Positions 19,107-61,642 of a stretch of DNA of 64,000 bases are shown one piece after another. Each line of letters starts with the position of its first letter. Within the stretch, counting starts at the first letter, position 1. The notes beneath the pieces are model-generated. The model saw nothing but the letters and a program-made list of their open reading frames with translations, made no database searches and was not told the origin of the DNA. Location: NCBI GenBank assembly GCA_019828595.1, contig JAHQRK010000005.1:248001-312000 (forward strand), in the 5' to 3' direction. The translations under genes were made by a program, and so were the position numbers. Source of the DNA: Aphanomyces cochlioides. Its lineage: Eukaryota; Oomycota; Saprolegniomycetes; Saprolegniales; Verrucalvaceae.

Positions 19107-19345
19107 ATTGTCCGCGAAGTATTTATACGACAAACATAGATTTTCTAAGATATTGTCCTTTTCACCCAAATTTGTATTTTTCTACCAAAATTGAATTCAT
19201 TTCCAAATCGATTCGATCATGCTGAAGTCAAGTATAAATGAAAGGTACAGTAAATTGGCCAAATAAATTTAACGTGTGTGTTGGTGTGTTTTGCTTGAAT
19301 TTGATAAATAATCGATTCTGATTGGCTGATCGATTTGAAAAATCG
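19107..19345 (+). repeat. Dispersed repeat family Y, copy 3, cut off by the satellite array
   Basis: It starts after a TA with TTGTCCGCGAAGTATTTATA (the last words also occur near Tc1-type ends at 38,694 and 42,374) and runs through CCCAAATTTGTATTTT, GTGTGTGTTGGTGTGTTTTG and GATTCTGATTGGCTGATCGAT. It stops where the first 925-bp unit begins. Its right half, present in the 36002 copy, is missing. Confidence 0.65.
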
Positions 19346-22300
19346 ATACATCTGCTGCATCTATGATAAAAACATGATCTTTTTGTATTAGAGTGTGATA
19401 GGAAATCTATCACAGTTGCCTGAAAAACATTTTCAAAACAAGTTTTTGACTTGATTTCAGTATACAGATATGAAATGTGCAAAATTCTGAGCAACTGTGA
19501 TAGAGATTCTATCACGGTTTCTCAACAAACAAATATTGGCAGATATGAAGCTTTTCATTTAGTCGCCAGCATGAAGTCTAACCGAGAAACAAAGATGCTC
19601 TGAATAAATTTAACGTCTAGCACGGATATAAGCTAGGCTAGCTGCAGCAGAACACGACACTTGTTGACGTTTTATGCGCTCACTCGCCTGCTTGTACTGT
19701 TAGCATATGTAAATGTCGAGCACAAAACACAAAGCATTGTGGATATCTTGAAAACTATACGAATAGTCAATTAAGGCATAAACAAAACTGTAGGAGTCAT
19801 AAATAATGATGACGGATGTGATCTCCACACCTTCGCCACTACCTCATAACCCTATAAACTTTTGACGTTGCCAAAGTCTAAAAGAAATCTCGCATCCCCC
19901 TCTACAAGTTGAACAGTAGGTAGTAGGGCAATAATCTATTGAATCAGCCCACGCACAATAAACACCCTCTACAAGGTACATGACTCATTCACTTAGATTG
20001 CAGCGCATGAGTTCGATGTGTCAATATTACATGTACTCTTGTATAGCCGGAGTGAGAAACGGCACAGAACAACGTGAGACAAAAAAGGAAAACTTTCGAT
20101 TACAATTAGCATGAAGGAGGACTAGGCATGATAGTACTGCTGGTATGTGCTTCTGGAATATCTTCAAGGGGTTCATGTTGTGTTTTCGTCAAGTCAATCT
20201 ATTATATTAACTTCCAATCATATTGCGTCATTCGGTGTGATAGGAATCATATCACAGTTGCAGTCATTATATACATCTGCTGCATCTATGATAAAAACAT
20301 GATCTTTCTGTATTAGAGTGTGATAGGAAATCTATCACAGTTGCCTGAAAAACATTTTCAAAACAAGTTTTTGACTTGATTTCAGTATACAGATATGAAA
20401 TGTGCAAAATTCTGAGCAACTGTGATAGAGATTCTATCACGGTTTCTCAACAAACAAATATTGGCAGATATGAAGCTTTTCATTTAGTCGCCAGCATGAA
20501 GTCTAACCGAGAAACAAAGATGCTCTGAATAAATTTAACGTCTAGCACGGATATAAGCTAGGCTAGCTGCAGCAGAACACGACACTTGTTGACGTTTTAT
20601 GCGCTCACTCGCCTGCTTGTACTGTTAGCATATGTAAATGTCGAGCACAAAACACAAAGCATTGTGGATATCTTGAAAACTATACGAATAGTCAATTAAG
20701 GCATAAACAAAACTGTAGGAGTCATAAATAATGATGACGGATGTGATCTCCACACCTTCGCCACTACCTCATAACCCTATAAACTTTTGACGTTGCCAAA
20801 GTCTAAAAGAAATCTCGCATCCCCCTCTACAAGTTGAACAGTAGGTAGTAGGGCAATAATCTATTGAATCAGCCCACGCACAATAAACACCCTCTACAAG
20901 GTACATGACTCATTCACTTAGATTGCAGCGCATGAGTTCGATGTGTCAATATTACATGTACTCTTGTATAGCCGGAGTGAGAAACGGCACAGAACAACGT
21001 GAGACAAAAAAGGAAAACTTTCGATTACAATTAGCATGAAGGAGGACTAGGCATGATAGTACTGCTGGTATGTGCTTCTGGAATATCTTCAAGGGGTTCA
21101 TGTTGTGTTTTCGTCAAGTCAATCTATTATATTAACTTCCAATCATATTGCGTCATTCGGTGTGATAGGAATCATATCACAGTTGCAGTCATTATATACA
21201 TCTGCTGCATCTATGATAAAAACATGATCTTTTTGTATTAGAGTGTGATAGGAAATCTATCACAGTTGCCTGAAAAACATTTTCAAAACAAGTTATTGAC
21301 TTGATTTCAGTATACAGATATGAAATGTGCAAAATTCTGAGCAACTGTGATAGAGATTCTATCACGGTTTCTCAACAAACAAATATTGGCAGATATGAAG
21401 CTTTTCATTTAGTCGCCAGCATGAAGTCTAACCGAGAAACAAAGATGCTCTGAATAAATTTAACGTCTAGCACGGATATAAGCTAGGCTAGCTGCAGCAG
21501 AACACGACACTTGTTGACGTTTTATGCGCTCACTCGCCTGCTTGTACTGTTAGCATATGTAAATGTCGAGCACAAAACACAAAGCATTGTGGATATCTTG
21601 AAAACTATACGAATAGTCAATTAAGGCATAAACAAAACTGTAGGAGTCATAAATAATGATGACGGATGTGATCTCCACACCTTCGCCACTACCTCATAAC
21701 CCTATAAACTTTTGACGTTGCCAAAGTCTAAAAGAAATCTCGCATCCCCCTCTACAAGTTGAACAGTAGGTAGTAGGGCAATAATCTATTGAATCAGCCC
21801 ACGCACAATAAACACCCTCTACAAGGTACATGACTCATTCACTTAGATTGCAGCGCATGAGTTCGATGTGTCAATATTACATGTACTCTTGTATAGCCGG
21901 AGTGAGAAACGGCACAGAACAACGTGAGACAAAAAAGGAAAACTTTCGATTACAATTAGCATGAAGGAGGACTAGGCATGATAGTACTGCTGGTATGTGC
22001 TTCTGGAATATCTTCAAGGGGTTCATGTTGTGTTTTCGTCAAGTCAATCTATTATATTAACTTCCAATCATATTGCGTCATTCGGTGTGATAGGAATCAT
22101 ATCACAGTTGCAGTCATTATATACATCTGCTGCATCTATGATAAAAACATGATCTTTTTGTATTAGAGTGTGATAGGAAATCTATCACAGTTGCCTGAAA
22201 AACATTTTCAAAACAAGTTTTTGACTTGATTTCAGTATACAGATATGAAATGTGCAAAATTCTGAGCAACTGTGATAGAGATTCTATCACGGTTTCTCAA

Positions 22301-25300
22301 CAAACAAATATTGGCAGATATGAAGCTTTTCATTTAGTCGCCAGCATGAAGTCTAACCGAGAAACAAAGATGCTCTGAATAAATTTAACGTCTAGCACGG
22401 ATATAAGCTAGGCTAGCTGCAGCAGAACACGACACTTGTTGACGTTTTATGCGCTCACTCGCCTGCTTGTACTGTTAGCATATGTAAATGTCGAGCACAA
22501 AACACAAAGCATTGTGGATATCTTGAAAACTATACGAATAGTCAATTAAGGCATAAACAAAACTGTAGGAGTCATAAATAATGATGACGGATGTGATCTC
22601 CACACCTTCGCCACTACCTCATAACCCTATAAACTTTTGACGTTGCCAAAGTCTAAAAGAAATCTCGCATCCCCCTCTACAAGTTGAACAGTAGGTAGTA
22701 GGGCAATAATCTATTGAATCAGCCCACGCACAATAAACACCCTCTACAAGGTACATGACTCATTCACTTAGATTGCAGCGCATGAGTTCGATGTGTCAAT
22801 ATTACATGTACTCTTGTATAGCCGGAGTGAGAAACGGCACAGAACAACGTGAGACAAAAAAGGAAAACTTTCGATTACAATTAGCATGAAGGAGGACTAG
22901 GCATGATAGTACTGCTGGTATGTGCTTCTGGAATATCTTCAAGGGGTTCATGTTGTGTTTTCGTCAAGTCAATCTATTATATTAACTTCCAATCATATTG
23001 CGTCATTCGGTGTGATAGGAATCATATCACAGTTGCAGTCATTATATACATCTGCTGCATCTATGATAAAAACATGATCTTTTTGTATTAGAGTGTGATA
23101 GGAAATCTATCACAGTTGCCTGAAAAACATTTTCAAAACAAGTTTTTGACTTGATTTCAGTATACAGATATGAAATGTGCAAAATTCTGAGCAACTGTGA
23201 TAGAGATTCTATCACGGTTTCTCAACAAACAAATATTGGCAGATATGAAGCTTTTCATTTAGTCGCCAGCATGAAGTCTAACCGAGAAACAAAGATGCTC
23301 TGAATAAATTTAACGTCTAGCACGGATATAAGCTAGGCTAGCTGCAGCAGAACACGACACTTGTTGACGTTTTATGCGCTCACTCGCCTGCTTGTACTGT
23401 TAGCATATGTAAATGTCGAGCACAAAACACAAAGCATTGTGGATATCTTGAAAACTATACGAATAGTCAATTAAGGCATAAACAAAACTGTAGGAGTCAT
23501 AAATAATGATGACGGATGTGATCTCCACACCTTCGCCACTACCTCATAACCCTATAAACTTTTGACGTTGCCAAAGTCTAAAAGAAATCTCGCATCCCCC
23601 TCTACAAGTTGAACAGTAGGTAGTAGGGCAATAATCTATTGAATCAGCCCACGCACAATAAACACCCTCTACAAGGTACATGACTCATTCACTTAGATTG
23701 CAGCGCATGAGTTCGATGTGTCAATATTACATGTACTCTTGTATAGCCGGAGTGAGAAACGGCACAGAACAACGTGAGACAAAAAAGGAAAACTTTCGAT
23801 TACAATTAGCATGAAGGAGGACTAGGCATGATAGTACTGCTGGTATGTGCTTCTGGAATATCTTCAAGGGGTTCATGTTGTGTTTTCGTCAAGTCAATCT
23901 ATTATATTAACTTCCAATCATATTGCGTCATTCGGTGTGATAGGAATCATATCACAGTTGCAGTCATTATATACATCTGCTGCATCTATGATAAAAACAT
24001 GATCTTTTTGTATTAGAGTGTGATAGGAAATCTATCACAGTTGCCTGAAAAACATTTTCAAAACAAGTTTTTGACTTGATTTCAGTATACAGATATGAAA
24101 TGTGCAAAATTCTGAGCAACTGTGATAGAGATTCTATCACGGTTTCTCAACAAACAAATATTGGCAGATATGAAGCTTTTCATTTAGTCGCCAGCATGAA
24201 GTCTAACCGAGAAACAAAGATGCTCTGAATAAATTTAACGTCTAGCACGGATATAAGCTAGGCTAGCTGCAGCAGAACACGACACTTGTTGACGTTTTAT
24301 GCGCTCACTCGCCTGCTTGTACTGTTAGCATATGTAAATGTCGAGCACAAAACACAAAGCATTGTGGATATCTTGAAAACTATACGAATAGTCAATTAAG
24401 GCATAAACAAAACTGTAGGAGTCATAAATAATGATGACGGATGTGATCTCCACACCTTCGCCACTACCTCATAACCCTATAAACTTTTGACGTTGCCAAA
24501 GTCTAAAAGAAATCTCGCATCCCCCTCTACAAGTTGAACAGTAGGTAGTAGGGCAATAATCTATTGAATCAGCCCACGCACAATAAACACCCTCTACAAG
24601 GTACATGACTCATTCACTTAGATTGCAGCGCATGAGTTCGATGTGTCAATATTACATGTACTCTTGTATAGCCGGAGTGAGAAACGGCACAGAACAACGT
24701 GAGACAAAAAAGGAAAACTTTCGATTACAATTAGCATGAAGGAGGACTAGGCATGATAGTACTGCTGGTATGTGCTTCTGGAATATCTTCAAGGGGTTCA
24801 TGTTGTGTTTTCGTCAAGTCAATCTATTATATTAACTTCCAATCATATTGCGTCATTCGGTGTGATAGGAATCATATCACAGTTGCAGTCATTATATACA
24901 TCTGCTGCATCTATGATAAAAACATGATCTTTTTGTATTAGAGTGTGATAGGAAATCTATCACAGTTGCCTGAAAAACATTTTCAAAACAAGTTTTTGAC
25001 TTGATTTCAGTATACAGATATGAAATGTGCAAAATTCTGAGCAACTGTGATAGAGATTCTATCACGGTTTCTCAACAAACAAATATTGGCAGATATGAAG
25101 CTTTTCATTTAGTCGCCAGCATGAAGTCTAACCGAGAAACAAAGATGCTCTGAATAAATTTAACGTCTAGCACGGATATAAGCTAGGCTAGCTGCAGCAG
25201 AACACGACACTTGTTGACGTTTTATGCGCTCACTCGCCTGCTTGTACTGTTAGCATATGTAAATGTCGAGCACAAAACACAAAGCATTGTGGATATCTTG

Positions 25301-28300
25301 AAAACTATACGAATAGTCAATTAAGGCATAAACAAAACTGTAGGAGTCATAAATAATGATGACGGATGTGATCTCCACACCTTCGCCACTACCTCATAAC
25401 CCTATAAACTTTTGACGTTGCCAAAGTCTAAAAGAAATCTCGCATCCCCCTCTACAAGTTGAACAGTAGGTAGTAGGGCAATAATCTATTGAATCAGCCC
25501 ACGCACAATAAACACCCTCTACAAGGTACATGACTCATTCACTTAGATTGCAGCGCATGAGTTCGATGTGTCAATATTACATGTACTCTTGTATAGCCGG
25601 AGTGAGAAACGGCACAGAACAACGTGAGACAAAAAAGGAAAACTTTCGATTACAATTAGCATGAAGGAGGACTAGGCATGATAGTACTGCTGGTATGTGC
25701 TTCTGGAATATCTTCAAGGGGTTCATGTTGTGTTTTCGTCAAGTCAATCTATTATATTAACTTCCAATCATATTGCGTCATTCGGTGTGATAGGAATCAT
25801 ATCACAGTTGCAGTCATTATATACATCTGCTGCATCTATGATAAAAACATGATCTTTTTGTATTAGAGTGTGATAGGAAATCTATCACAGTTGCCTGAAA
25901 AACATTTTCAAAACAAGTTTTTGACTTGATTTCAGTATACAGATATGAAATGTGCAAAATTCTGAGCAACTGTGATAGAGATTCTATCACGGTTTCTCAA
26001 CAAACAAATATTGGCAGATATGAAGCTTTTCATTTAGTCGCCAGCATGAAGTCTAACCGAGAAACAAAGATGCTCTGAATAAATTTAACGTCTAGCACGG
26101 ATATAAGCTAGGCTAGCTGCAGCAGAACACGACACTTGTTGACGTTTTATGCGCTCACTCGCCTGCTTGTACTGTTAGCATATGTAAATGTCGAGCACAA
26201 AACACAAAGCATTGTGGATATCTTGAAAACTATACGAATAGTCAATTAAGGCATAAACAAAACTGTAGGAGTCATAAATAATGATGACGGATGTGATCTC
26301 CACACCTTCGCCACTACCTCATAACCCTATAAACTTTTGACGTTGCCAAAGTCTAAAAGAAATCTCGCATCCCCCTCTACAAGTTGAACAGTAGGTAGTA
26401 GGGCAATAATCTATTGAATCAGCCCACGCACAATAAACACCCTCTACAAGGTACATGACTCATTCACTTAGATTGCAGCGCATGAGTTCGATGTGTCAAT
26501 ATTACATGTACTCTTGTATAGCCGGAGTGAGAAACGGCACAGAACAACGTGAGACAAAAAAGGAAAACTTTCGATTACAATTAGCATGAAGGAGGACTAG
26601 GCATGATAGTACTGCTGGTATGTGCTTCTGGAATATCTTCAAGGGGTTCATGTTGTGTTTTCGTCAAGTCAATCTATTATATTAACTTCCAATCATATTG
26701 CGTCATTCGGTGTGATAGGAATCATATCACAGTTGCAGTCATTATATACATCTGCTGCATCTATGATAAAAACATGATCTTTTTGTATTAGAGTGTGATA
26801 GGAAATCTATCACAGTTGCCTGAAAAACATTTTCAAAACAAGTTTTTGACTTGATTTCAGTATACAGATATGAAATGTGCAAAATTCTGAGCAACTGTGA
26901 TAGAGATTCTATCACGGTTTCTCAACAAACAAATATTGGCAGATATGAAGCTTTTCATTTAGTCGCCAGCATGAAGTCTAACCGAGAAACAAAGATGCTC
27001 TGAATAAATTTAACGTCTAGCACGGATATAAGCTAGGCTAGCTGCAGCAGAACACGACACTTGTTGACGTTTTATGCGCTCACTCGCCTGCTTGTACTGT
27101 TAGCATATGTAAATGTCGAGCACAAAACACAAAGCATTGTGGATATCTTGAAAACTATACGAATAGTCAATTAAGGCATAAACAAAACTGTAGGAGTCAT
27201 AAATAATGATGACGGATGTGATCTCCACACCTTCGCCACTACCTCATAACCCTATAAACTTTTGACGTTGCCAAAGTCTAAAAGAAATCTCGCATCCCCC
27301 TCTACAAGTTGAACAGTAGGTAGTAGGGCAATAATCTATTGAATCAGCCCACGCACAATAAACACCCTCTACAAGGTACATGACTCATTCACTTAGATTG
27401 CAGCGCATGAGTTCGATGTGTCAATATTACATGTACTCTTGTATAGCCGGAGTGAGAAACGGCACAGAACAACGTGAGACAAAAAAGGAAAACTTTCGAT
27501 TACAATTAGCATGAAGGAGGACTAGGCATGATAGTACTGCTGGTATGTGCTTCTGGAATATCTTCAAGGGGTTCATGTTGTGTTTTCGTCAAGTCAATCT
27601 ATTATATTAACTTCCAATCATATTGCGTCATTCGGTGTGATAGGAATCATATCACAGTTGCAGTCATTATATACATCTGCTGCATCTATGATAAAAACAT
27701 GATCTTTTTGTATTAGAGTGTGATAGGAAATCTATCACAGTTGCCTGAAAAACATTTTCAAAACAAGTTTTTGACTTGATTTCAGTATACAGATATGAAA
27801 TGTGCAAAATTCTGAGCAACTGTGATAGAGATTCTATCACGGTTTCTCAACAAACAAATATTGGCAGATATGAAGCTTTTCATTTAGTCGCCAGCATGAA
27901 GTCTAACCGAGAAACAAAGATGCTCTGAATAAATTTAACGTCTAGCACGGATATAAGCTAGGCTAGCTGCAGCAGAACACGACACTTGTTGACGTTTTAT
28001 GCGCTCACTCGCCTGCTTGTACTGTTAGCATATGTAAATGTCGAGCACAAAACACAAAGCATTGTGGATATCTTGAAAACTATACGAATAGTCAATTAAG
28101 GCATAAACAAAACTGTAGGAGTCATAAATAATGATGACGGATGTGATCTCCACACCTTCGCCACTACCTCATAACCCTATAAACTTTTGACGTTGCCAAA
28201 GTCTAAAAGAAATCTCGCATCCCCCTCTACAAGTTGAACAGTAGGTAGTAGGGCAATAATCTATTGAATCAGCCCACGCACAATAAACACCCTCTACAAG

Positions 28301-31300
28301 GTACATGACTCATTCACTTAGATTGCAGCGCATGAGTTCGATGTGTCAATATTACATGTACTCTTGTATAGCCGGAGTGAGAAACGGCACAGAACAACGT
28401 GAGACAAAAAAGGAAAACTTTCGATTACAATTAGCATGAAGGAGGACTAGGCATGATAGTACTGCTGGTATGTGCTTCTGGAATATCTTCAAGGGGTTCA
28501 TGTTGTGTTTTCGTCAAGTCAATCTATTATATTAACTTCCAATCATATTGCGTCATTCGGTGTGATAGGAATCATATCACAGTTGCAGTCATTATATACA
28601 TCTGCTGCATCTATGATAAAAACATGATCTTTTTGTATTAGAGTGTGATAGGAAATCTATCACAGTTGCCTGAAAAACATTTTCAAAACAAGTTTTTGAC
28701 TTGATTTCAGTATACAGATATGAAATGTGCAAAATTCTGAGCAACTGTGATAGAGATTCTATCACGGTTTCTCAACAAACAAATATTGGCAGATATGAAG
28801 CTTTTCATTTAGTCGCCAGCATGAAGTCTAACCGAGAAACAAAGATGCTCTGAATAAATTTAACGTCTAGCACGGATATAAGCTAGGCTAGCTGCAGCAG
28901 AACACGACACTTGTTGACGTTTTATGCGCTCACTCGCCTGCTTGTACTGTTAGCATATGTAAATGTCGAGCACAAAACACAAAGCATTGTGGATATCTTG
29001 AAAACTATACGAATAGTCAATTAAGGCATAAACAAAACTGTAGGAGTCATAAATAATGATGACGGATGTGATCTCCACACCTTCGCCACTACCTCATAAC
29101 CCTATAAACTTTTGACGTTGCCAAAGTCTAAAAGAAATCTCGCATCCCCCTCTACAAGTTGAACAGTAGGTAGTAGGGCAATAATCTATTGAATCAGCCC
29201 ACGCACAATAAACACCCTCTACAAGGTACATGACTCATTCACTTAGATTGCAGCGCATGAGTTCGATGTGTCAATATTACATGTACTCTTGTATAGCCGG
29301 AGTGAGAAACGGCACAGAACAACGTGAGACAAAAAAGGAAAACTTTCGATTACAATTAGCATGAAGGAGGACTAGGCATGATAGTACTGCTGGTATGTGC
29401 TTCTGGAATATCTTCAAGGGGTTCATGTTGTGTTTTCGTCAAGTCAATCTATTATATTAACTTCCAATCATATTGCGTCATTCGGTGTGATAGGAATCAT
29501 ATCACAGTTGCAGTCATTATATACATCTGCTGCATCTATGATAAAAACATGATCTTTTTGTATTAGAGTGTGATAGGAAATCTATCACAGTTGCCTGAAA
29601 AACATTTTCAAAACAAGTTTTTGACTTGATTTCAGTATACAGATATGAAATGTGCAAAATTCTGAGCAACTGTGATAGAGATTCTATCACGGTTTCTCAA
29701 CAAACAAATATTGGCAGATATGAAGCTTTTCATTTAGTCGCCAGCATGAAGTCTAACCGAGAAACAAAGATGCTCTGAATAAATTTAACGTCTAGCACGG
29801 ATATAAGCTAGGCTAGCTGCAGCAGAACACGACACTTGTTGACGTTTTATGCGCTCACTCGCCTGCTTGTACTGTTAGCATATGTAAATGTCGAGCACAA
29901 AACACAAAGCATTGTGGATATCTTGAAAACTATACGAATAGTCAATTAAGGCATAAACAAAACTGTAGGAGTCATAAATAATGATGACGGATGTGATCTC
30001 CACACCTTCGCCACTACCTCATAACCCTATAAACTTTTGACGTTGCCAAAGTCTAAAAGAAATCTCGCATCCCCCTCTACAAGTTGAACAGTAGGTAGTA
30101 GGGCAATAATCTATTGAATCAGCCCACGCACAATAAACACCCTCTACAAGGTACATGACTCATTCACTTAGATTGCAGCGCATGAGTTCGATGTGTCAAT
30201 ATTACATGTACTCTTGTATAGCCGGAGTGAGAAACGGCACAGAACAACGTGAGACAAAAAAGGAAAACTTTCGATTACAATTAGCATGAAGGAGGACTAG
30301 GCATGATAGTACTGCTGGTATGTGCTTCTGGAATATCTTCAAGGGGTTCATGTTGTGTTTTCGTCAAGTCAATCTATTATATTAACTTCCAATCATATTG
30401 CGTCATTCGGTGTGATAGGAATCATATCACAGTTGCAGTCATTATATACATCTGCTGCATCTATGATAAAAACATGATCTTTTTGTATTAGAGTGTGATA
30501 GGAAATCTATCACAGTTGCCTGAAAAACATTTTCAAAACAAGTTTTTGACTTGATTTCAGTATACAGATATGAAATGTGCAAAATTCTGAGCAACTGTGA
30601 TAGAGATTCTATCACGGTTTCTCAACAAACAAATATTGGCAGATATGAAGCTTTTCATTTAGTCGCCAGCATGAAGTCTAACCGAGAAACAAAGATGCTC
30701 TGAATAAATTTAACGTCTAGCACGGATATAAGCTAGGCTAGCTGCAGCAGAACACGACACTTGTTGACGTTTTATGCGCTCACTCGCCTGCTTGTACTGT
30801 TAGCATATGTAAATGTCGAGCACAAAACACAAAGCATTGTGGATATCTTGAAAACTATACGAATAGTCAATTAAGGCATAAACAAAACTGTAGGAGTCAT
30901 AAATAATGATGACGGATGTGATCTCCACACCTTCGCCACTACCTCATAACCCTATAAACTTTTGACGTTGCCAAAGTCTAAAAGAAATCTCGCATCCCCC
31001 TCTACAAGTTGAACAGTAGGTAGTAGGGCAATAATCTATTGAATCAGCCCACGCACAATAAACACCCTCTACAAGGTACATGACTCATTCACTTAGATTG
31101 CAGCGCATGAGTTCGATGTGTCAATATTACATGTACTCTTGTATAGCCGGAGTGAGAAACGGCACAGAACAACGTGAGACAAAAAAGGAAAACTTTCGAT
31201 TACAATTAGCATGAAGGAGGACTAGGCATGATAGTACTGCTGGTATGTGCTTCTGGAATATCTTCAAGGGGTTCATGTTGTGTTTTCGTCAAGTCAATCT

Positions 31301-34300
31301 ATTATATTAACTTCCAATCATATTGCGTCATTCGGTGTGATAGGAATCATATCACAGTTGCAGTCATTATATACATCTGCTGCATCTATGATAAAAACAT
31401 GATCTTTTTGTATTAGAGTGTGATAGGAAATCTATCACAGTTGCCTGAAAAACATTTTCAAAACAAGTTTTTGACTTGATTTCAGTATACAGATATGAAA
31501 TGTGCAAAATTCTGAGCAACTGTGATAGAGATTCTATCACGGTTTCTCAACAAACAAATATTGGCAGATATGAAGCTTTTCATTTAGTCGCCAGCATGAA
31601 GTCTAACCGAGAAACAAAGATGCTCTGAATAAATTTAACGTCTAGCACGGATATAAGCTAGGCTAGCTGCAGCAGAACACGACACTTGTTGACGTTTTAT
31701 GCGCTCACTCGCCTGCTTGTACTGTTAGCATATGTAAATGTCGAGCACAAAACACAAAGCATTGTGGATATCTTGAAAACTATACGAATAGTCAATTAAG
31801 GCATAAACAAAACTGTAGGAGTCATAAATAATGATGACGGATGTGATCTCCACACCTTCGCCACTACCTCATAACCCTATAAACTTTTGACGTTGCCAAA
31901 GTCTAAAAGAAATCTCGCATCCCCCTCTACAAGTTGAACAGTAGGTAGTAGGGCAATAATCTATTGAATCAGCCCACGCACAATAAACACCCTCTACAAG
32001 GTACATGACTCATTCACTTAGATTGCAGCGCATGAGTTCGATGTGTCAATATTACATGTACTCTTGTATAGCCGGAGTGAGAAACGGCACAGAACAACGT
32101 GAGACAAAAAAGGAAAACTTTCGATTACAATTAGCATGAAGGAGGACTAGGCATGATAGTACTGCTGGTATGTGCTTCTGGAATATCTTCAAGGGGTTCA
32201 TGTTGTGTTTTCGTCAAGTCAATCTATTATATTAACTTCCAATCATATTGCGTCATTCGGTGTGATAGGAATCATATCACAGTTGCAGTCATTATATACA
32301 TCTGCTGCATCTATGATAAAAACATGATCTTTTTGTATTAGAGTGTGATAGGAAATCTATCACAGTTGCCTGAAAAACATTTTCAAAACAAGTTTTTGAC
32401 TTGATTTCAGTATACAGATATGAAATGTGCAAAATTCTGAGCAACTGTGATAGAGATTCTATCACGGTTTCTCAACAAACAAATATTGGCAGATATGAAG
32501 CTTTTCATTTAGTCGCCAGCATGAAGTCTAACCGAGAAACAAAGATGCTCTGAATAAATTTAACGTCTAGCACGGATATAAGCTAGGCTAGCTGCAGCAG
32601 AACACGACACTTGTTGACGTTTTATGCGCTCACTCGCCTGCTTGTACTGTTAGCATATGTAAATGTCGAGCACAAAACACAAAGCATTGTGGATATCTTG
32701 AAAACTATACGAATAGTCAATTAAGGCATAAACAAAACTGTAGGAGTCATAAATAATGATGACGGATGTGATCTCCACACCTTCGCCACTACCTCATAAC
32801 CCTATAAACTTTTGACGTTGCCAAAGTCTAAAAGAAATCTCGCATCCCCCTCTACAAGTTGAACAGTAGGTAGTAGGGCAATAATCTATTGAATCAGCCC
32901 ACGCACAATAAACACCCTCTACAAGGTACATGACTCATTCACTTAGATTGCAGCGCATGAGTTCGATGTGTCAATATTACATGTACTCTTGTATAGCCGG
33001 AGTGAGAAACGGCACAGAACAACGTGAGACAAAAAAGGAAAACTTTCGATTACAATTAGCATGAAGGAGGACTAGGCATGATAGTACTGCTGGTATGTGC
33101 TTCTGGAATATCTTCAAGGGGTTCATGTTGTGTTTTCGTCAAGTCAATCTATTATATTAACTTCCAATCATATTGCGTCATTCGGTGTGATAGGAATCAT
33201 ATCACAGTTGCAGTCATTATATACATCTGCTGCATCTATGATAAAAACATGATCTTTTTGTATTAGAGTGTGATAGGAAATCTATCACAGTTGCCTGAAA
33301 AACATTTTCAAAACAAGTTTTTGACTTGATTTCAGTATACAGATATGAAATGTGCAAAATTCTGAGCAACTGTGATAGAGATTCTATCACGGTTTCTCAA
33401 CAAACAAATATTGGCAGATATGAAGCTTTTCATTTAGTCGCCAGCATGAAGTCTAACCGAGAAACAAAGATGCTCTGAATAAATTTAACGTCTAGCACGG
33501 ATATAAGCTAGGCTAGCTGCAGCAGAACACGACACTTGTTGACGTTTTATGCGCTCACTCGCCTGCTTGTACTGTTAGCATATGTAAATGTCGAGCACAA
33601 AACACAAAGCATTGTGGATATCTTGAAAACTATACGAATAGTCAATTAAGGCATAAACAAAACTGTAGGAGTCATAAATAATGATGACGGATGTGATCTC
33701 CACACCTTCGCCACTACCTCATAACCCTATAAACTTTTGACGTTGCCAAAGTCTAAAAGAAATCTCGCATCCCCCTCTACAAGTTGAACAGTAGGTAGTA
33801 GGGCAATAATCTATTGAATCAGCCCACGCACAATAAACACCCTCTACAAGGTACATGACTCATTCACTTAGATTGCAGCGCATGAGTTCGATGTGTCAAT
33901 ATTACATGTACTCTTGTATAGCCGGAGTGAGAAACGGCACAGAACAACGTGAGACAAAAAAGGAAAACTTTCGATTACAATTAGCATGAAGGAGGACTAG
34001 GCATGATAGTACTGCTGGTATGTGCTTCTGGAATATCTTCAAGGGGTTCATGTTGTGTTTTCGTCAAGTCAATCTATTATATTAACTTCCAATCATATTG
34101 CGTCATTCGGTGTGATAGGAATCATATCACAGTTGCAGTCATTATATACATCTGCTGCATCTATGATAAAAACATGATCTTTTTGTATTAGAGTGTGATA
34201 GGAAATCTATCACAGTTGCCTGAAAAACATTTTCAAAACAAGTTTTTGACTTGATTTCAGTATACAGATATGAAATGTGCAAAATTCTGAGCAACTGTGA

Positions 34301-36001
34301 TAGAGATTCTATCACGGTTTCTCAACAAACAAATATTGGCAGATATGAAGCTTTTCATTTAGTCGCCAGCATGAAGTCTAACCGAGAAACAAAGATGCTC
34401 TGAATAAATTTAACGTCTAGCACGGATATAAGCTAGGCTAGCTGCAGCAGAACACGACACTTGTTGACGTTTTATGCGCTCACTCGCCTGCTTGTACTGT
34501 TAGCATATGTAAATGTCGAGCACAAAACACAAAGCATTGTGGATATCTTGAAAACTATACGAATAGTCAATTAAGGCATAAACAAAACTGTAGGAGTCAT
34601 AAATAATGATGACGGATGTGATCTCCACACCTTCGCCACTACCTCATAACCCTATAAACTTTTGACGTTGCCAAAGTCTAAAAGAAATCTCGCATCCCCC
34701 TCTACAAGTTGAACAGTAGGTAGTAGGGCAATAATCTATTGAATCAGCCCACGCACAATAAACACCCTCTACAAGGTACATGACTCATTCACTTAGATTG
34801 CAGCGCATGAGTTCGATGTGTCAATATTACATGTACTCTTGTATAGCCGGAGTGAGAAACGGCACAGAACAACGTGAGACAAAAAAGGAAAACTTTCGAT
34901 TACAATTAGCATGAAGGAGGACTAGGCATGATAGTACTGCTGGTATGTGCTTCTGGAATATCTTCAAGGGGTTCATGTTGTGTTTTCGTCAAGTCAATCT
35001 ATTATATTAACTTCCAATCATATTGCGTCATTCGGTGTGATAGGAATCATATCACAGTTGCAGTCATTATATACATCTGCTGCATCTATGATAAAAACAT
35101 GATCTTTTTGTATTAGAGTGTGATAGGAAATCTATCACAGTTGCCTGAAAAACATTTTCAAAACAAGTTTTTGACTTGATTTCAGTATACAGATATGAAA
35201 TGTGCAAAATTCTGAGCAACTGTGATAGAGATTCTATCACGGTTTCTCAACAAACAAATATTGGCAGATATGAAGCTTTTCATTTAGTCGCCAGCATGAA
35301 GTCTAACCGAGAAACAAAGATGCTCTGAATAAATGTAACGTCTAGCACGGATATAAGCTAGGCTAGCTGCAGCAGAACACGACACTTGTTGACGTTTTAT
35401 GCGCTCACTCGCCTGCTTGTACTGTTAGCATATGTAAATGTCGAGCACAAAACACAAAGCATTGTGGATATCTTGAAAACTATACGAATAGTCAATTAAG
35501 GCATAAACAAAACTGTAGGAGTCATAAATAATGATGACGGATGTGATCTCCACACCTTCGCCACTACCTCATAACCCTATAAACTTTTGACGTTGCCAAA
35601 GTCTAAAAGAAATCTCGCATCCCCCTCTACAAGTTGAACAGTAGGTAGTAGGGCAATAATCTATTGAATCAGCCCACGCACAATAAACACCCTCTACAAG
35701 GTACATGACTCATTCACTTAGATTGCAGCGCATGAGTTCGATGTGTCAATATTACATGTACTCTTGTATAGCCGGAGTGAGAAACGGCACAGAACAACGT
35801 GAGACAAAAAAGGAAAACTTTCGATTACAATTAGCATGAAGGAGGACTAGGCATGATAGTACTGCTGGTATGTGCTTCTGGAATATCTTCAAGGGGTTCA
35901 TGTTGTGTTTTCGTCAAGTCAATCTATTATATTAACTTCCAATCATATTGCGTCATTCGGTGTGATAGGAATCATATCACAGTTGCAGTCATTATATACA
36001 T
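19346..36001. repeat. Macrosatellite: 18 tandem units of exactly 925 bp
   Basis: The unit begins ATACATCTGCTGCATC at 19,346, 20,271 and so on every 925 bp, and the last ends at about 35,995; (35,996-19,346)/925 is exactly 18. I noticed only three differences: C for T at 20,308, A for T at 21,295, and G for T at 35,335. Each unit has three imperfect palindromes built on GTGATAG...CTATCAC, a perfect AGCTAGGCTAGCT dyad, and no frame longer than about 62 codons. Copy-identical 62-codon frames starting at ATGATAGTACTG look like chance. No rRNA, snRNA or histone sequence is recognisable. Near-identity means very recent expansion or strong homogenisation. The true copy number may exceed the assembled 18. 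Confidence 0.97.
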
Positions 36002-36340
36002 TTCAGACCCCTCTCACAATTTCGAATGAAATCGACAATAACATTATTGTCATTTTCAACCAAATTTGTGGTTTTGACCAAAATGCGAATTCGTTTTCAA
36101 ATCGATTTCATAATACTGAAGTGGTGTGTGTCAGTGTGTGTTTTGCGTGAGTCAGGTGGCTGATCGATTCTGATTGGCTAACTAATTTTAATTTTTAATT
36201 CTAGCCAATCAGAGAAGCCCGTTCGATTCGGAATCGATTCGAAACCTCGGTCGATTCAAACCGTTCCTCACAATTTTGTATCAAAGGACAAATATTGCCG
36301 TTTGTATGCATCCACAGAAAATTTGTCCTGTATTATCCAA
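36002..36340 (+). repeat. Dispersed repeat family Y, copy 4
   Basis: It begins just after the array (TTTCAGACCCCTCTCAC) and contains GTCATTTTCAACCAAATTTG, the GTGTGTGTCAGTGTGTG core, TTGCGTGAGTCAGGTGG, two CCAATCAG/CTGATTGG words in inverse orientation, and GTTCCTCACAATTTTGTATC. The same family in the same orientation borders the other side of the array. Confidence 0.65.
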
Positions 36341-37539: not shown

Positions 37540-38720
37540 GGTGACCTGTGAGAAATAATTATATGCGCAGGGACTTTTTAAATTTTTAAAGTACCCAAAC
37601 TACATTTAAAATGGATTTTAAACTATGTGCTATTTATAGCCATACAAAACACACGAAATGGCGCGTATCTGGCATCGAAATTCAAATTTCTCATGCCACG
37701 GGAACCTGAACTGACGCAACTGGAGATAGGCAAGATCCTAGCATGAAAAGAGGAGAATCTATCCATGCGGGAGATTGCTAGCTCTGACTCGACCATACGA
37801 GCCTTTTTGAAGTCGCCCGACACCTACAAGACCAAGAAAAGGAGCGGAAGGAAGACAAGACTCCTCAAGAGGGACATTCGTCGCATTTTCCGGAATGCTA
37901 TAGTCCACAACTACTCGGCCGAGAAGAGCGCGAAGACTCTCTCAAGAAAGATCTCTGGACGTACTGTGCTCAACATCTTGAAGTCGTCCAAATTCGTCAA
38001 GAATGCCAAGAAAAAGCCTGCTCCGGCTTTGACCAAGCAGCACAAAATCAGGCGCAAGAAATTTGCCGCAAAGTTCTTGGCCAAAGTCAAGTTGTGGGAT
38101 AACGTCATCTTCTCTGATGAGAAAAAGTTCAATCTTGACGGTCCTGATGGATTTCGTTGCTACTGGCGAGACCTACGACGCGAAGAAGAAACCTTCTCAA
38201 AGCGCGTTTGCGGCGGCAGGAGTGTCATGGTGTTGGCTGCGGTCAATCGCCATGGAAAGTCCTCCTTGGTGTTTTTGGAAGACAAGCAAGACTCAAGGAA
38301 GTACTGCGACACGCTTCAAGAGCATCTGATGCCGTTCATTGATGAAGTCAAGCGCCAAAATGGAGGACAAGATGTTGTTTTCCAACAAGACAACGCATCA
38401 ATTCATGTGTCAAAGTTCACTGGTGAGTTTATTGATGAATCAGGGCTATTGCTGCTAGATTGGCCAAGCAAGAGCCCTGATTTGAACATCATCGAGAACG
38501 TTTGGGGCCATTTGGTACGTCTTGTTTACTCAAATGGACGCCAGTTCGACAATGTGTCTGATTTGAAGCGACAAATTGCGTTATCATGGTCTCAGATTAC
38601 TGTTGACTATTTGGCTAAGCTCGTGGAAAGTATGCCAACTCGTTTGGCTAACGTCTTGTTGAAAAACGGTTGTGCAATTGACTATTAGTCTAGTGCGCGT
38701 ATAAATACTTCGGGCAATGA
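37540..38720 (+). mobile_element. Tc1-like element
   Basis: The transposase frame 37693-38688 is followed by TGCGCGTATAAATACTTCG (about 38,694-38,712). A diverged inverse version, AGAAATAATTATATGCGCA, lies at 37,551-37,569. The same end word recurs at 42,374-42,392 and, inverted, at 19,115, each near a TA. Ends are approximate because the outermost bases have drifted. Confidence 0.65.
37693..38688 (+). pseudogene. Tc1-like transposase (DD34E), one early stop
   Basis: From ATG 37693 the frame reads MPREPELTQLEIGKILA, then TGA at 37744-37746, then runs open from KEENLSMREIA to the stop at 38688 (307 residues after the Met at 37765). The N-terminus is a helix-turn-helix (MREIASSDSTIRAFLK) with basic KKRSGRKTRLLKRD. 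Catalytic residues: Asp in IFSDEKKF, Asp in FQQDNASIHVS, and Glu in SPDLNIIENVWG. The last two are separated by 34 residues, the Tc1 spacing. The single nonsense codon in the DNA-binding region is the only lesion I see; a shorter product from 37765 would lack part of the first HTH. Confidence 0.88.
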
Positions 38721-38829: not shown

Positions 38830-38975
38830 AAATTATTGTCTTCGTGTATTGTCGTTTGGGTCCAAAACTGGAATTTTGATATGTTTTGAAAATGTTTCAA
38901 TTAATTGACGCATACACTATTTAAAGTTTAGGCAAACATTTTTTAAAAATTGACCTCAACCGTGACCATTAAATA
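38830..38975 (-). repeat. Repeat family X, left part of interrupted copy
   Basis: The reverse complement of 4708-4840 (GACGCATACACTATTTAAA, TTGACCTCAACCGTGACC). It ends at the TA 38974-38975, where the 3.2-kb element begins; the remaining part resumes at 42203. Confidence 0.8.
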
Positions 38976-39192
38976 CACCATTTGCCGGTTTAGTTCGTTT
39001 AACTTGCGATATATTTACACATATTTGGGGGTTTGCGAAACTCAACGAAACCCTTGCAATTCGATATTTAGTTCTGCAGTCATTGTGTGATTTTGCAAAT
39101 CGTTGCTGATCAAGCGTGCAAGCAGGAAGAGAACGCATTGCGTATGAGTTGATCAATCGAGGTCATTCAAGGTATTTATCAACTACACTAAG

Positions 39193-41390
39193 CTAATGTT
39201 TAAGAAGATCATATAGAGTTGAGTAGCTCATTTCATCGAAACGCCGATTACATAGGCGTTTGGGGTCCAGCTTCAGGGACAGTGAATCAACCAGTCGCTG
39301 AAAACATTGCGAGTACAAAGCCATCAGATCTGGCAGCTCCATGCGTGCAACAGCAGCGGATGAAAGGTCAGTATTCTTCATGAGCTCCGAAATCACACGA
39401 GACAACTTAGAGAAATTGACACGATCCTTGCAATGAGGGAAGTCTTTGGTTCGCAAAAGTCGCAATGGTCCAATTTGTTTTGATGGAATTCCGATCCACC
39501 ATGACCGCCATGAATCACAGATCCTTCCTGTCGGGCATACTACATTTTGGCAATGCAATTGGCGAGAGTTAGACCACCATGTAGTCGTAGACACATCAGA
39601 ATTGACGCCTGTAGGGTTAGAAACGGTTCCGCGGTGACTCAATTCATTCACAACGGACGAGCATATGGACTTGACAAGCTCGTCGAGCGCATCTTTAGAT
39701 ATTGGCAGACTTGGAGGTAAAGATACATGTTGCAAGACACTTCTTGTAACATCACTGGGTAGATTTTTCAGCTGCGAGGATATGTTTTCATACCCTTTCT
39801 CTATCATATCCATTCTGTGAAGCATTGATATATGTGGTGGAATGCCTGATGCTGCCAAACCAGTGGTCAAATTTTTCATCGTGCCAAGATGAACTGACTT
39901 TGACAAGCGACTCACAAGCTGAGTCGACCAAAGATTTGAGAACCAAAGAGGATGTCTTTCATCCAAATTGAGTTGCAGCCATTTTGCATGATAAACAATT
40001 GACGCTAAAAGAAACGGGGCTGCAGATCGGAAAGAGCTTGGATACCAAGTGGAATAGCCAGGCAAAATACGAGTCCATTCGGCTTCATCAATAGTCATAC
40101 CATCAAAATGGGGTGGTAGCACCGCAAATCTAGATGAGTTGATTTCTAAACCTAGGAGGAGAGATAACGCTTCTCATGAGTTATAACTAGTACCAGCTGC
40201 TGTACGGCCAACGTATTGGTCACCACCAGCGCCCGAGAAGATGTATCGACCTTGAACTGGTCCAAGAGTCCATCCTGCCCGCAAATAAACAGAGACTGGA
40301 GTTGGTCCACCTGGTGTATTGGATATTTCTGACGCAACCCCTTTGCGAAACGAATGCGTGCCTACATCTTTGACTGAAATGCCTAGACTGAGAAGCTCTG
40401 CCTCGCATGAACCACAGATTTTTGTCAACCATGCACCAAATCTCTCTTTGGCATTCGGACCAAAGACCATCCTCGACCTCTTCTCACAGGGGGGCGCCTT
40501 TCGAGAACACAAGCACTGCTAGACTAGATATGGCTAAGTAAAGTATCGTATTTATTCCTTTACCTCAATATCGGGCAAATTTCGGGGTTATCGGGATTTG
40601 CAAATACATGACGTGGGCTGCAGTTCTCGCCCATTTGATCGTTCTTCATTCTTCCATACTTAATGACCGGTGCATCGCCTAGAAGATATGAATAGATGTA
40701 CTAGTATAGCCTAAGCTACCTTGCCAAGAGATGTGATCATACAAGATTGCTCCAACAGTAACTGAGCGTGCAATTAAGTTCCAGGACAGAAGTAAAAACA
40801 AATGAACGATTCTCGTGCATTTTCTATCCGACTCTGAAATCAGAGCCTTCCTTGCAAGAAAGCGATAACCTAAGAACGTCAGCCATGTCTCTAGAAAATC
40901 GACGAACCATCCATGAAAACGGGATCCTTCCCTTCTCCAACTGGTCTTCTTTCATTTTAGCCACTTTTCGCTTGTAGCCACATGTGAAGTCTAAACACTA
41001 CTTTTAGCCCTGATACAGTATCATAGATTGTGCACCTGAGAGCAAAGTAGAGAGGTCTTCTGGTATTTTGACCTTTGCCTCGCGATGCAAATGGACGATC
41101 GCGCTTCTGCATCCGTCAATTGTCGATGCTGATTTGTGCTGCGTTGTTTTGCTGCGTCGATTTCCATTTGTCGCCTCATGGGCAAGGAATCCTTTGTAAA
41201 CAAGAGGATCTAATGGGAGCACAATCGATCCGTCACGCACAAGATGTGGGTGCTCTTGAGAGAGCCAACTCACTAGGCGACGAATTACTACTGAATATTG
41301 ATATCGTGTCGACGAAGCGACTCTCATGCGCAGGACATGGTCGCCAAAGCCTGCTTCATCGGCCGCGTTCGAGTGACTTTCACAACTCAT
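39193..41390 (-). pseudogene. Crypton tyrosine recombinase with C-terminal GCR1-like region
   Basis: On the minus strand, in order: MSCESHSNAADEA start (41390); a core-binding domain (YQYSVVIRRLVSWL, VYKGFLAHEA, STIDGCRSAIVHLHREA); CGYKRKVAKMKEDQ (about 40,970); ARSVTVGAILYDHISW (about 40,740), which supplies the first catalytic Arg; HVFANPDNPEICPIL (about 40,600); the HxxR box in VGTHSFRKGVASEI; and LRAGWTLGPVQGRYIF with Trp and the Tyr nucleophile (about 40,250). A long tail follows (AVLPPHFDGM to the stop at 39193) with WWIGIPSKQIGPLRLL, like the GCR1_C-type DNA-binding region fused to many oomycete Cryptons. At least four stops or frame changes (41,004; 40,780; near 40,530; 40,170) disable it, although all catalytic residues survive. 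Confidence 0.8.
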
Positions 41391-41589
41391 GGTAATGTGC
41401 CCTGGAATCCACAGTTGTTTGAGTACGGATAATAAAGTTTCGTTTCTTTTCGTGAAAACCAATCAAAGTCTGCATTTAACATCTCTCATACAAATTTTCA
41501 TATGCATCAATGTTGATCAATGTCATCCCACGAATTTCGTGAAGTGGCTTCTTCAATGCATATCCGGCATGAAACATTTCGTTAAATAC

Positions 41590-42163: not shown

Positions 42164-42202
42164 ATATATCGCAAGTTAAACGAACTAAACCGGCACATGG
42201 TG

Positions 42203-42345
42203 TAGTGTAATTTCAAACGTTTTAAATGTTTGAAAACATGTTCGAAACATTCAATTTCTTTTCACTTGAAATTTGTATGTGTCAATTGTTGCGTCAATTT
42301 GCTTGCGTCAAAATTTATTCCGCACGACTCCAGGTTTTTATTAAA
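42203..42345 (-). repeat. Repeat family X, right part of interrupted copy
   Basis: Nearly identical to the reverse complement of 4571-4709 (TAATTTCAAACGTTTTAAAT, GCACGACTCCAGG). It continues the copy that stops at 38975. Confidence 0.85.
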
Positions 42346-54498: not shown

Positions 54499-55658
54499 TC
54501 AGCACAGAACGAGGTATATCTCCATGTCATTGGGCTCGTTACTTGTATCGTATTCATGCATTTCATCGTCCCAATCATCATCCCTATCGAACATATCAAC
54601 AAGTAAATTGTGCATGACTGTAGCACATCGAATGTACAGCACCATAATTTTTGCTGCAGACGGCTTTGATATATCCATTCGCATTCCCCGAAGAGATTGA
54701 AATCGCCCCTTTAAGATTCCAATGCAATGTTCATTCACACTTCTACTTTGGGCAACACAGGTGTTGAAGTACATTTGCTCTTGAGACAAGCGACGACCTC
54801 GTGATCGCTTGTAGGTTGTAGAATATGATCACAAAGCATGTAGCCTGAGTCAGCAAGCAGAAATTGTAGATGGTCAAAATATTGACAAGGATTTCTCGCC
54901 AGCTTACTATTAGACCACACTCGCATATCATGTACAGCACCAGGCCAACCAAAATCAATAAATCGGACTCTTTTTCTGTCATCGCAAACAAACAACCATG
55001 CCTGCCATACCATAGTAACCTTTCGACTATAAAAATCTTCACCATTTTGAGATGGACGGGCATACACAGGGAACAAAGTACCATCTACAAATCCAACACA
55101 GCCTTCAATGCCATGATTCAACTCAATTCTGCGCGCTATTGATTTTCGGCCTCGTTTAGATGGCCAATAAACAGTATATCGTTCCAAACTTATTATAGAA
55201 ATAAGGCAGCGCTTGCAATAAAGAGTCACAGCCCCCTCACTGATTCCAAAATGACGAGCCAAAATACCAACGGAGCTACCATTTTCAAATCGCCCCAATT
55301 TGGCAAGAAAAACAAGAAGTTGGTGGGGTACTGGACTTTGACATACGTGTGCTTGGTTTGAAAATACTGCATGTGACTGAATCATTTCAACAATTTGATG
55401 AAAACTTGATTTGCTCATTCGAGCTTCTTGTCGAAAGCGACAATCATCGAGACTCATTAGATAATCAAATGGAGGATCGCGCTTTGGAACCGGCAAACGT
55501 TGTTGTAAATATCGATGCGATAGAATTTCACAGTAAAGGTATAGAAGCAAGTTAAACGTCATTCCAAGTTGAGAGCTTATCATAGCGATGGCAACCAAGG
55601 GATTTCCACGCGATCCTAGACAATGCGCACCAAATTTACTCGTTTTACTCCTCGACAT
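54499..55658 (-). pseudogene. PIF/Harbinger transposase (DDE_Tnp_4), one frameshift
   Basis: The first frame (55658-54735) has a leading hydrophobic segment, then FRQEARMSKSSFHQIVEM, an HTH-like FENGSSVGILARHFGIS, catalytic Asp 1 in GCVGFVDGTLFPVY and Asp 2 in FLLADSGYML. Near 54,825 the frame slips by one base; the second frame resumes as TYKRSRGRRLSQEQMYFN, with the catalytic Glu in SVNEHCIGILKGRFQSLRG, and ends at 54499 with an acidic tail. With the Myb/SANT-like gene it forms the standard two-gene Harbinger set. I could not find the element's terminal repeats; the right side is abutted by a MULE. Confidence 0.82.
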
Positions 55659-60026: not shown

Positions 60027-61642
60027 ATGGATGAAGATCTTCTCCAGAGGGTTGAAATGGCCCTTATTGATGTCCGAGATAACAACATGTCTTGCAGAGG
60101 CGCTGCTGCCAAACATGGCATTGGTCGCATGCTCCTCGATCGGCGTCTTAAAGGGACTGTCGAAGTGAATGCAACCAACGGACCAGTTTCAGTTCTTACC
60201 CAGGGCGAGGAGATGGGCTTGATAGACGCCATCAATCAGCGCGCCCAACACGGCCAATGCTTTACAAACAACGAGTTGGCTGGGTTCATCCGTCGCTGTA
60301 TTGACGAAAGCCCCCACGCACGCATGATTCCAAGTGGTTTCCATCCAAACGATTCGTTCAACGATTCGTCTAGCGCCACAAAGACAAGATATCACACCGA
60401 CAAGCGCAGTTTTTAGAGACCAATCGCGCAGTGCGAAGCACGGAGGAAGTCGTCACTAATCACTATTCTGCAATTGAGAAAGTTATTCGCGACAATGGCA
60501 TTACACCCGAACGGCTATGGAATTTGGACGAAACTGGCATGTGTGCCCAAGGTTCAAGAAACAAACGACGAGTCATTGCTCCAAAGGGACAAGCGGCTAA
60601 CGTTCAGACCTCACAATGCCGTCGAAACGTATCTGCATTGGTCTGTATGAATGCTGCAGGGGACTACTTGCCACATTTCTTTATATTCCCTGGAAAAAAT
60701 ATTGCACAACGGTGGACTCACGGTGCCATGGAAGGCTCAAACTTTGCTGCTTCCGAATCGTCATTCTTGACAACGAAGCTTTTTGTTCAATACTTTACTT
60801 GGTTTGTGGACCGAATTGCCCCCCAGTGACCTGTTTTGTTGTGCATGGATGGATACAAAGCCCATTGGTCGGCTCGAACACTTGCTTATGCAAAGGAGAA
60901 TGGTCTACTGCTGTATGCGCTTCCATCACACACATCACACATTTTGCAGCCACTTGACGAAACAGTTTTTTCCCATTTCAAACGCAATCTGGACAAAGAA
61001 ATTGTCAATTTCATATCGTTAAACAAAACAACGCCAGAGCTGGGTGACATGGTTGCCGTTGGATCTCGGGCTTTGGCCAAAAGCGTCTCAAGGTCAAACA
61101 TTGTATGTGGTTTTGAGAAGACCGGACTGTGGCCTTTGTGCTTGGATGTGATGTTATCAAAGATAGTTGGTGATCAGCCACACTCAATGCAACGAACAGT
61201 GCTTATCCAGCCAGCAATCTCCATTTCACCCGCGGCTGATGTCTTGCTTCGAGAGCTCAACATTGATCCCGATGCTGCTCGAGTCGTCCATCTGAACACA
61301 TCTCATTTGATTGAGATGAAGCAATGCTTGAAAGCCCCAAAGGCACAAGACACATGGGTTCACGGGGGCTGCTTGATGACTACAGAAGCAATTATAAAGG
61401 CCGTGAAGGAGAGAGAAGACGCGAACCTTGAAAAGCAACGCGTTATGGCCGAAAACAAGAAAGCACGCGACATACGACGCTCTGCTGCTGTCTTGAAGAA
61501 ACTGCAAGTTGCAATCAAGAACAAAGAAAAGATGGAAAGAAGAACTATGGCGATGGAGGACAAGCAAAAGCCCACGCGACGCAAGCGCAAACGCGCGGTC
61601 CACGACGAAACTGAGCACATGGTAGTTGCTGGCGTATTGTGA
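60027..61642 (+). pseudogene. Pogo/Tigger-like (DDE_1) transposase with three lesions
   Basis: The Met at 60027 (MDEDLLQRVEMALIDV) begins an HTH_Psq-like domain (SCRGAAAKHGIGRMLLDRR), then LIDAINQRAQHGQCF. Near 60,325 the frame shifts to KWFPSKRFVQRFV, TAG, RHKDKISHRQAQFLETNRA, which is the CENP-B-type second HTH. Asp 1 is in LWNLDETGMCAQG; RNVSALVCMNAAGDYLP follows. A TGA at 60827-60829 stands where Arg is usual (before PVLLCMDGYKAHW, Asp 2). Asp 3 is in HILQPLDETVFSHFKRNL. The C-terminus is a long coiled, Lys-rich region ending at 61642. Ends are unclear; ATTCCGTGACAT (about 59,843) and its inverse (about 61,662) may be subterminal. Confidence 0.8.

Follow-up and report, generated by a model that had tools for sequence, protein, structure and literature searches.

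A tandem array in Aphanomyces cochlioides that appears to be a recently amplified, site-specific mobile element

The window analysed here is a 64-kb stretch of the Aphanomyces cochlioides genome (C45:248001-312000 of a 94-contig, 76.2-Mb assembly). It holds a tandem array of, as assembled, 18 head-to-tail units of 925 bp each, which lies 267 kb inside a 3.6-Mb contig and within a MITE, called T1 below. The features of the locus, in positions of the window, are as follows.

19151..19347, + strand: left part of the host MITE T1, beginning TATTGTC (from flank reading)
19348..35997, + strand: tandem array of 18 x 925 bp, each unit ACAT followed by CTGCTGC...GTCATTATAT (from self-comparison, unit alignment and junction count)
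19395..19413, + strand: palindrome GTGATAGGAAATCTATCAC, at +48 of unit 1 and recurring every 925 bp (from sequence and folding)
19497..19515, + strand: palindrome GTGATAGAGATTCTATCAC, at +150 of unit 1 and recurring every 925 bp (from sequence and folding)
20237..20255, + strand: palindrome GTGATAGGAATCATATCAC, 17 bp from the right end of unit 1 (at +890) and recurring every 925 bp (from sequence and folding)
35998..36001, + strand: closing ACAT core, N units carrying N+1 cores (from filled versus empty sites)
35998..36040, + strand: right part of the host MITE T1, ACATTTCAGACC...GACAATA (from flank reading)

The first-pass annotation had described eighteen 925-bp units of constant length, and self-comparison of the window bears this out, with a single block at a period of 925 and none at 924 or 926. 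The interval 19346-36001 equals 18 x 925 bp plus 6 bp, with ATACAT at both ends and no change of length. The unit-unit junction, GTCATTATAT followed by ACATCTGC, occurs 17 times, the number required by 18 units, and a chance origin of this repeat pattern is out of the question. The three single-base differences reported earlier, at 20308 (unit 2), 21295 (unit 3) and 35335 (unit 18), are exactly those recovered; each is private to one unit, and 15 of the 18 units are identical. The array is absent from the list produced by Tandem Repeats Finder, which was run with a longest period of 500. ACAT alone is common to T1, to a second MITE (T2) and to both unit ends, so that each unit consists of ACAT and a further 921 bp, and 19 ACATs are present in the window array.

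Instead of a locus-specific satellite, the unit proved to be a mobile element that is non-coding and dispersed through the genome. Its end patterns, searched through the 76.2 Mb with up to three mismatches, gave 367 left ends and 361 right ends, in both arrays and single copies on several contigs; a reversed control pattern gave no place in the same genome. A DNA search found at least three single copies of 98-99% identity (the best 3 of 100 candidates), which have the same left end as the window unit and, in two of the three, the same right end. Other arrays run from base 1 to about 36.5 kb of C7 (+ strand), from base 1 to about 27.5 kb of C19 (- strand), and on C25 from the contig start and, on the opposite strand, from 112 kb. 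The C19 array opens with the left half of T1 and the C7 array closes with the right half. These halves, together with the closeness of the one C19 unit compared to the C7 units, lead us to infer that C19 and C7 are two sides of a single array, at least about 64 kb long, and meet inside it. Unit length elsewhere is 903-928 bp, in 143 units from arrays and single copies with overlapping loci counted again. At L066 on C1 there is one unit-unit junction, with the outer parts of both units cut and another unit as its left flank.

Nested insertions are present in this genome. A 3.5-kb copy on C12 was considered as an autonomous form and rejected: its extra 2.6 kb, which has a 418-aa ORF resembling a DDE transposase by eye, interrupts the unit at a TA and is read as a nested transposon. 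On C22, positions 1-223 of the unit precede ORFs that, judged by eye, resemble those of retroelements, and this too was set aside, as a nested or truncated copy.

Ends and flanks were read at 22 loci plus further copies among the matches listed, a part of the 367 places. The MITE family T1 has the ends TATTGTC...GACAATA. Without the array the window copy measures 240 bp, and T1 left parts at other loci are 76-96% identical to the left part of L001. The empty T1 site TTTGAAAAATCGATACATTTCGGACC (TCGAT-ACAT-TTCGG) is found at 131 places with up to three mismatches, and the empty T2 site AATTAATTGAAACATTTTCGAAACATCTCA (TTGAA-ACAT-TTTCG) at 41 places exactly. The filled sites read TCGAT-ACAT-CTGC...GTCATTATAT-ACAT-TTCGG in T1 and TTGAA-ACAT-CTGC...TATAT-ACAT-TTTCG in T2. 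ACAT is single in the empty sites and stands on both sides of the filled T1, T2, L090/L091 and L092/L093 sites; by comparison with the empty T1 and T2 sites, no target letters are lost on entry at ACAT. Across tandem copies the rule is that N units share N+1 ACATs, one per junction. The base that precedes ACAT at the insertion is T in T1, A in T2 and C at L093.

Among 21 left junctions of the window type, 11 lie in T1, all at one position, 3 in T2 and 7 elsewhere (L003, L065, L068, L071, L077, L089 and L090; the search that yielded L089 and L090 barred T before ACAT and therefore barred T1). This count is separate from L066, where another unit forms the left flank, from the array pieces L082 and L083, from L080, which represents just the right end of the joint C7/C19 array, and from the diverged subfamily L086-L088 and L092/L093. 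The genome holds about 765,000 ACATs, estimated from their density in the window, and for 14 of 21 junctions to fall in T1 or T2 goes far beyond what chance would give, even with 2000 such sites, by a rough test on loci not sampled at random. Right ends of the window type were read at 17 places, and ACAT adjoins the unit in 13. The other four are L003, L065 and L072, where ACAT was perhaps lost through later damage, and L075, where a 640-bp insert separates the unit end from the right half of T1.

The unit begins with ACATCTGC on the left and ends with GTCATTATAT on the right. No terminal inverted repeats (TIRs) are present at these ends; in this the unit departs from a MITE, which is recognized by TIRs and the target-site duplication (TSD) of a DDE superfamily. 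A weak subterminal inverted pair lies at the junction, its 12-bp half-sites matching at 10 of 12 positions and standing 18 bp apart; it was equalled in 69 of 3000 shuffles. Palindromes of the GTGAT...ATCAC type, GTGATAG..CTATCAC, occur at +48 and +150 from the core and fold better than 200 of 200 shuffles (z -3.8 and -5.2), and the fold of the right palindrome at +890 is modestly better than that of shuffles (z -2.0; 8 of 200). There is no convincing ORF in the unit, the longest listed frame being 62 aa, and a protein-coding unit was rejected on this ground. The absence of any rDNA, snRNA or histone repeat, as claimed earlier, holds as far as tested, since the window contains no Rfam family at gathering score and no tRNA; on the same evidence the reading as an RNA gene was rejected. 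Long, head-to-tail and non-coding, the arrays are satellite DNA by the usual definition.

The history of the array was approached by a place-by-place comparison of 65 units: 18 from the window, 30 from C7, 1 from C19, 3 from C25, these last three being a subset of the units in their arrays, and 13 single copies including L093. Mean divergence within arrays was 0.04% in the window and 0.14% in C7, compared with about 1.2% between the window and the C7/C19 units compared, and 0.65% between the window unit and the nearest single copy compared, on C16. The C25 units differ by 0.66-0.98% from the window units and by 0.22-0.44% from one another, while the mean difference of the single C19 unit from those of C7 is 0.19%. 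With units near-identical within an array and divergent between groups, there are thus three array groups (window, C7/C19 and C25), each from its own founder. Random capture of circles from all copies would give mixed arrays, whereas the window array is one lineage, and the fact that all three of its variants are private fits one rapid burst. The recent amplification proposed in the first-pass annotation agrees with these figures. A single insertion, flanked only by a 4-6-bp repeat, could hardly start ordinary unequal exchange, so that a seed dimer would be needed; recombination of the element's own at ACAT would supply one.

A diverged relative of 927 bp (L092/L093, on C56), 67% identical to the unit, is inserted at ATCGAC-ACAT-TTCTTTC. 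Its core, ends and palindromes (+48, +150 and +892) have been kept and its middle has drifted. Half-T1 patterns for other elements at the T1 ACAT gave five left places, of which three were read, and no right places. Two of the three, L094 and L095, are sister families that interrupt T1 at the same ACAT as the unit; the third, L096, looks like a rearranged T1. Both sisters have in common with the unit ACATC, TGATA at +17, GTGTGAT at +46 and TGTGAT at +148. L094 pairs at 7 of 9 positions in a palindrome at +48 and at 6 of 9 in another at +150; L095 has one at +48 (7 of 9 pairs), a stronger one at +63, and only the TGTGAT half-site at +148. In-register identity to the unit over 176 bp is 42% for L094 and 40% for L095, compared with maxima of 32% and 35%, respectively, in a control of 30 slid registers, and was equalled by none of 5000 mononucleotide shuffles. 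That the spacing of the sites stayed fixed while the families diverged suggests that L094, L095 and the unit may be served by a shared recombinase with several putative binding sites.

The reading that we favor, with roughly even confidence, is that the unit, non-autonomous and site-specific, is mobilized in trans through circles, probably by a tyrosine recombinase of the Crypton type, and that a resident copy was amplified in tandem. The recombinase, supplied in trans and most likely Crypton-like, would bind the palindromic sites; the element would be excised as a circle, and the ACAT of the circle would be joined to a chromosomal ACAT. A circle that entered the ACAT next to a resident copy, or that was first replicated into a multimer, would produce a head-to-tail seed with one ACAT per junction. 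This seed could then grow rapidly to 18 units by further circles, rolling-circle multimers or unequal exchange. A Crypton-like enzyme is proposed because TIRs are missing, the direct repeats are short and such genes are abundant. Cryptons have no TIRs, have terminal direct repeats of 4 or 6 bp, and have a proposed circular intermediate (PMC3212892).

The window itself contains a tyrosine-recombinase-like ORF at 39193-40173, which has at least 129 matches in the genome (123 of 456 candidates scored) and two named homologues in Aphanomyces euteiches, at 36-38% identity. A search with the protein encoded in the flank, at 62127-62576, had no result. HxxR...Y motifs, in one homologue in the form THSFRKG...RYIF, occur in the homologues and are what we take to be the tyrosine-recombinase motif. 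The window ORFs gave one weak SAM-like Pfam match, at an E of 0.0025 that falls below the cut-off. Searches of Pfam and PDB by sequence added no support, and two predicted structures of a homologue, one made alone and one with nine sequences, had a mean pLDDT of 32 and 39, too poor for use. No coding element with the ends of the unit was found. One of 12 sister left ends lies within about 3 kb of a same-strand recombinase-like match (123 of 456 match candidates scored), namely C78:363120 (-), with the match 1.8-2.7 kb downstream; given 129 matches in 76 Mb, we put the probability of one such neighbor by chance at about 3-6%. In the 461 bp at and beyond that match there is no ACAT accompanied by a GTGAT palindrome, and none of the recombinase-like matches (123 of 456 candidates scored) falls within 5 kb of the L094 and L095 insertions in T1. 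A tyrosine recombinase typically has 6-8 bp between inverted arms of 11-13 bp (PMC3212892). The 4 bp shared here, together with the weakness and the 18-bp separation of the inverted half-sites, count against the Crypton reading, as do the missing coding partner, the TATGG ends of most oomycete CryptonS and the four right ends without ACAT. It is possible, though we hold the idea only tentatively, that the unit represents a new group of eukaryotic site-specific elements, perhaps outside the known Crypton groups, with an ACAT core, recombinase sites at constant distances (+48, +150) despite divergence elsewhere, one position of MITEs as landing pad, and satellites formed by recurrent use of its own core.

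A rolling-circle element with an HUH Rep protein, Helitron-, Helentron- or Replitron-like, would peel off a strand, miss the terminator and insert a multimer next to ACAT. The absence of TIRs, the near-identity of units within the array and the palindrome 17 bp from the right end, a possible hairpin of modest strength (z -2.0, 8 of 200), are in keeping with such an origin. The end rule of Helitrons is 5' TC and 3' CTRR, neither of which the unit has, and Helentrons insert between T and T. Helitron insertion is between A and T (PMC10741241); the unit enters before ACAT after T, A or C, which is neither A/T nor T/T. In Helentrons and HINEs the subterminal inverted repeats lie 2-4 nt from the 5' end (PMC4067079), whereas the palindromes of the unit start at +48 and +150. 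A Helitron would not be expected to have a fixed repeat of 4 bp at each end. Tandem Helitron arrays are known, however (PMC4067079, PMC12628747), and we count in favor the traits of Replitrons, which have no TIRs, direct terminal repeats of 5-11 bp, TSDs of 2-8 bp and lengths of 0.9-4 kb (PMC10741241). Taken together, we consider a rolling-circle origin unlikely, though it deserves to be kept in mind. The 4-bp direct repeats that flank the copies would also suit a derivative of a DDE-type transposon with a fixed ACAT TSD, its arrays formed by insertion beside an older copy and then unequal crossing-over, and nested insertions do occur in this genome. This is rather improbable: the unit is without TIRs, a DDE enzyme with a single non-palindromic 4-bp target would, to our knowledge, be unusual, and repeated insertion of different copies should have led to a mixed array instead of one lineage.

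Could the unit be a plain satellite, spread by unequal exchange and microhomology-driven reinsertion of circles with no enzyme of its own? It is non-coding and nearly uniform within the array, and the transposon origin of satellites is well known (PMC12628747). We think this very unlikely, since the precise ends of single copies, the 14 of 21 junctions in two MITE positions and the spacing of sites in the sister families suggest a specific enzyme, and the 4-6-bp repeat at a single insertion would be too short to start unequal homologous exchange. On contigs C7, C19 and C25, arrays of this element extend to the very first bases, so the assembler evidently struggled with them, and the near-identity of the units hampers counting. 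Nevertheless, that one insertion was inflated to 18 units by the assembly is scarcely credible: units 2, 3 and 18 have private variants and both halves of one T1 MITE stand at the two ends of the array, which argues against mechanical duplication, and other arrays were resolved with variants of their own.

On present evidence the array looks real; it appears to be a recent tandem amplification of a mobile element, non-autonomous and site-specific, and not a centromere or an RNA repeat. The first-pass annotation had suggested a centromeric, heterochromatic or amplified ncRNA locus, which is not supported because the array lies well inside a contig, within a MITE, and the unit is dispersed over several contigs, site-specific, and single or arrayed. 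Apparently the array is a transposon on its way to satellite DNA. Many satellites are thought to be transposon-born, but their beginning is seldom seen, since it is difficult to connect single insertions with old arrays. One genome here shows empty sites, single insertions, a truncated unit-unit junction, near-pure arrays and base-exact ends, and the sharing of N+1 ACATs by N units suggests that the array was seeded by the recombination site of the element itself. The outcome is a concrete, testable model of satellite birth, in which the passage from a single insertion to an array can be traced with unusual clarity, and the landing-pad target could lead to the missing recombinase.

In the portions of the open-access literature consulted, on Cryptons, Helitrons, Replitrons, circle-linked arrays and oomycete satellites, there is no account of such an element, which does not imply its absence from print. 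In Aphanomyces euteiches, another oomycete with a long-read genome, 41 AeSat families have been described, ten of the satellites being transposon-like; that survey kept only monomers of 100-500 bp, so a 925-bp unit would not be counted there (PMC8780586). Non-autonomous Cryptons (e.g., CryptonI-1N1_RPro), which outnumber autonomous ones, and the oomycete CryptonF and CryptonS resemble the unit in their lack of TIRs and their short terminal direct repeats, thought in CryptonF and CryptonS to be the recombination substrate (PMC3212892); recombinase-like genes are, moreover, plentiful in this genome. The oomycete Crypton groups have 5-6-bp repeats and most CryptonS end in TATGG (PMC3212892), whereas the core of the unit is the 4-bp ACAT, not TATGG or 6 bp, and the unit differs further in its strong use of one MITE position, its long arrays, and ends that are not matched with a coding element. 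Tandem (centromeric) Helitron arrays (Xiong et al., 2016, via PMC12628747) are likewise head-to-tail arrays formed from a transposon with a palindrome near its right end. The unit lacks the Helitron termini and does not follow the Helitron insertion rule, and many Helitron arrays have multiple 5' ends and a single 3' end, whereas both ends are kept here in 18 of 18 units. KolobokP multimers have long terminal direct repeats, TIRs and a DDD/E transposase, in contrast to the 4-bp shared repeat of the unit, but there too neighbors share one terminal repeat, and circle insertion or unequal exchange has been proposed for their formation (PMC9587614).

A G precedes the left end of the 925-bp unit (GACATCTG) at C55:23, C55:46496, C16:17769, C39:221014 and C74:23501; the sequence was read at the first three of these, and only the places were noted for C39:221014 and C74:23501. 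The three that were read all belong to the diverged subfamily of the unit and have one common flank, and therefore look like duplicated segments.

At L089 (C67:924560-924800) the initial part of a copy, judged by eye, reverses direction at the +48 palindrome and runs back over itself, much as a processed hairpin would. Near 2211-2856 of L075, an inverted-repeat element of roughly 640 bp separates the right end of the unit from the right half of T1, a target MITE. The flank past the C7 array (L080, C7:36532 to about 37.75 kb) recurs as an inverted copy terminating in unit positions 779-925, a fold-back that is either real or an assembly fault.

The surroundings of the array in the window are transposon-rich, since ORFs at 37747-38688, 54735-55658 and 60830-61642 match the DDE transposase families DDE_3, DDE_Tnp_4 and DDE_1. 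From 38847 to about 42350, a T2-like MITE is split by a second element with the following features:

38974-39014 and 42164-42204, 41-bp inverted repeats
39193-40173, - strand, Crypton-like ORF
41004-41462, - strand, Crypton-like ORF

Inside it, ATATTTCGTAT-type sites also form an inverted repeat of 193 bp. The interrupting element is perhaps a TIR element with tyrosine recombinase cargo, as in the published MarCry composite.
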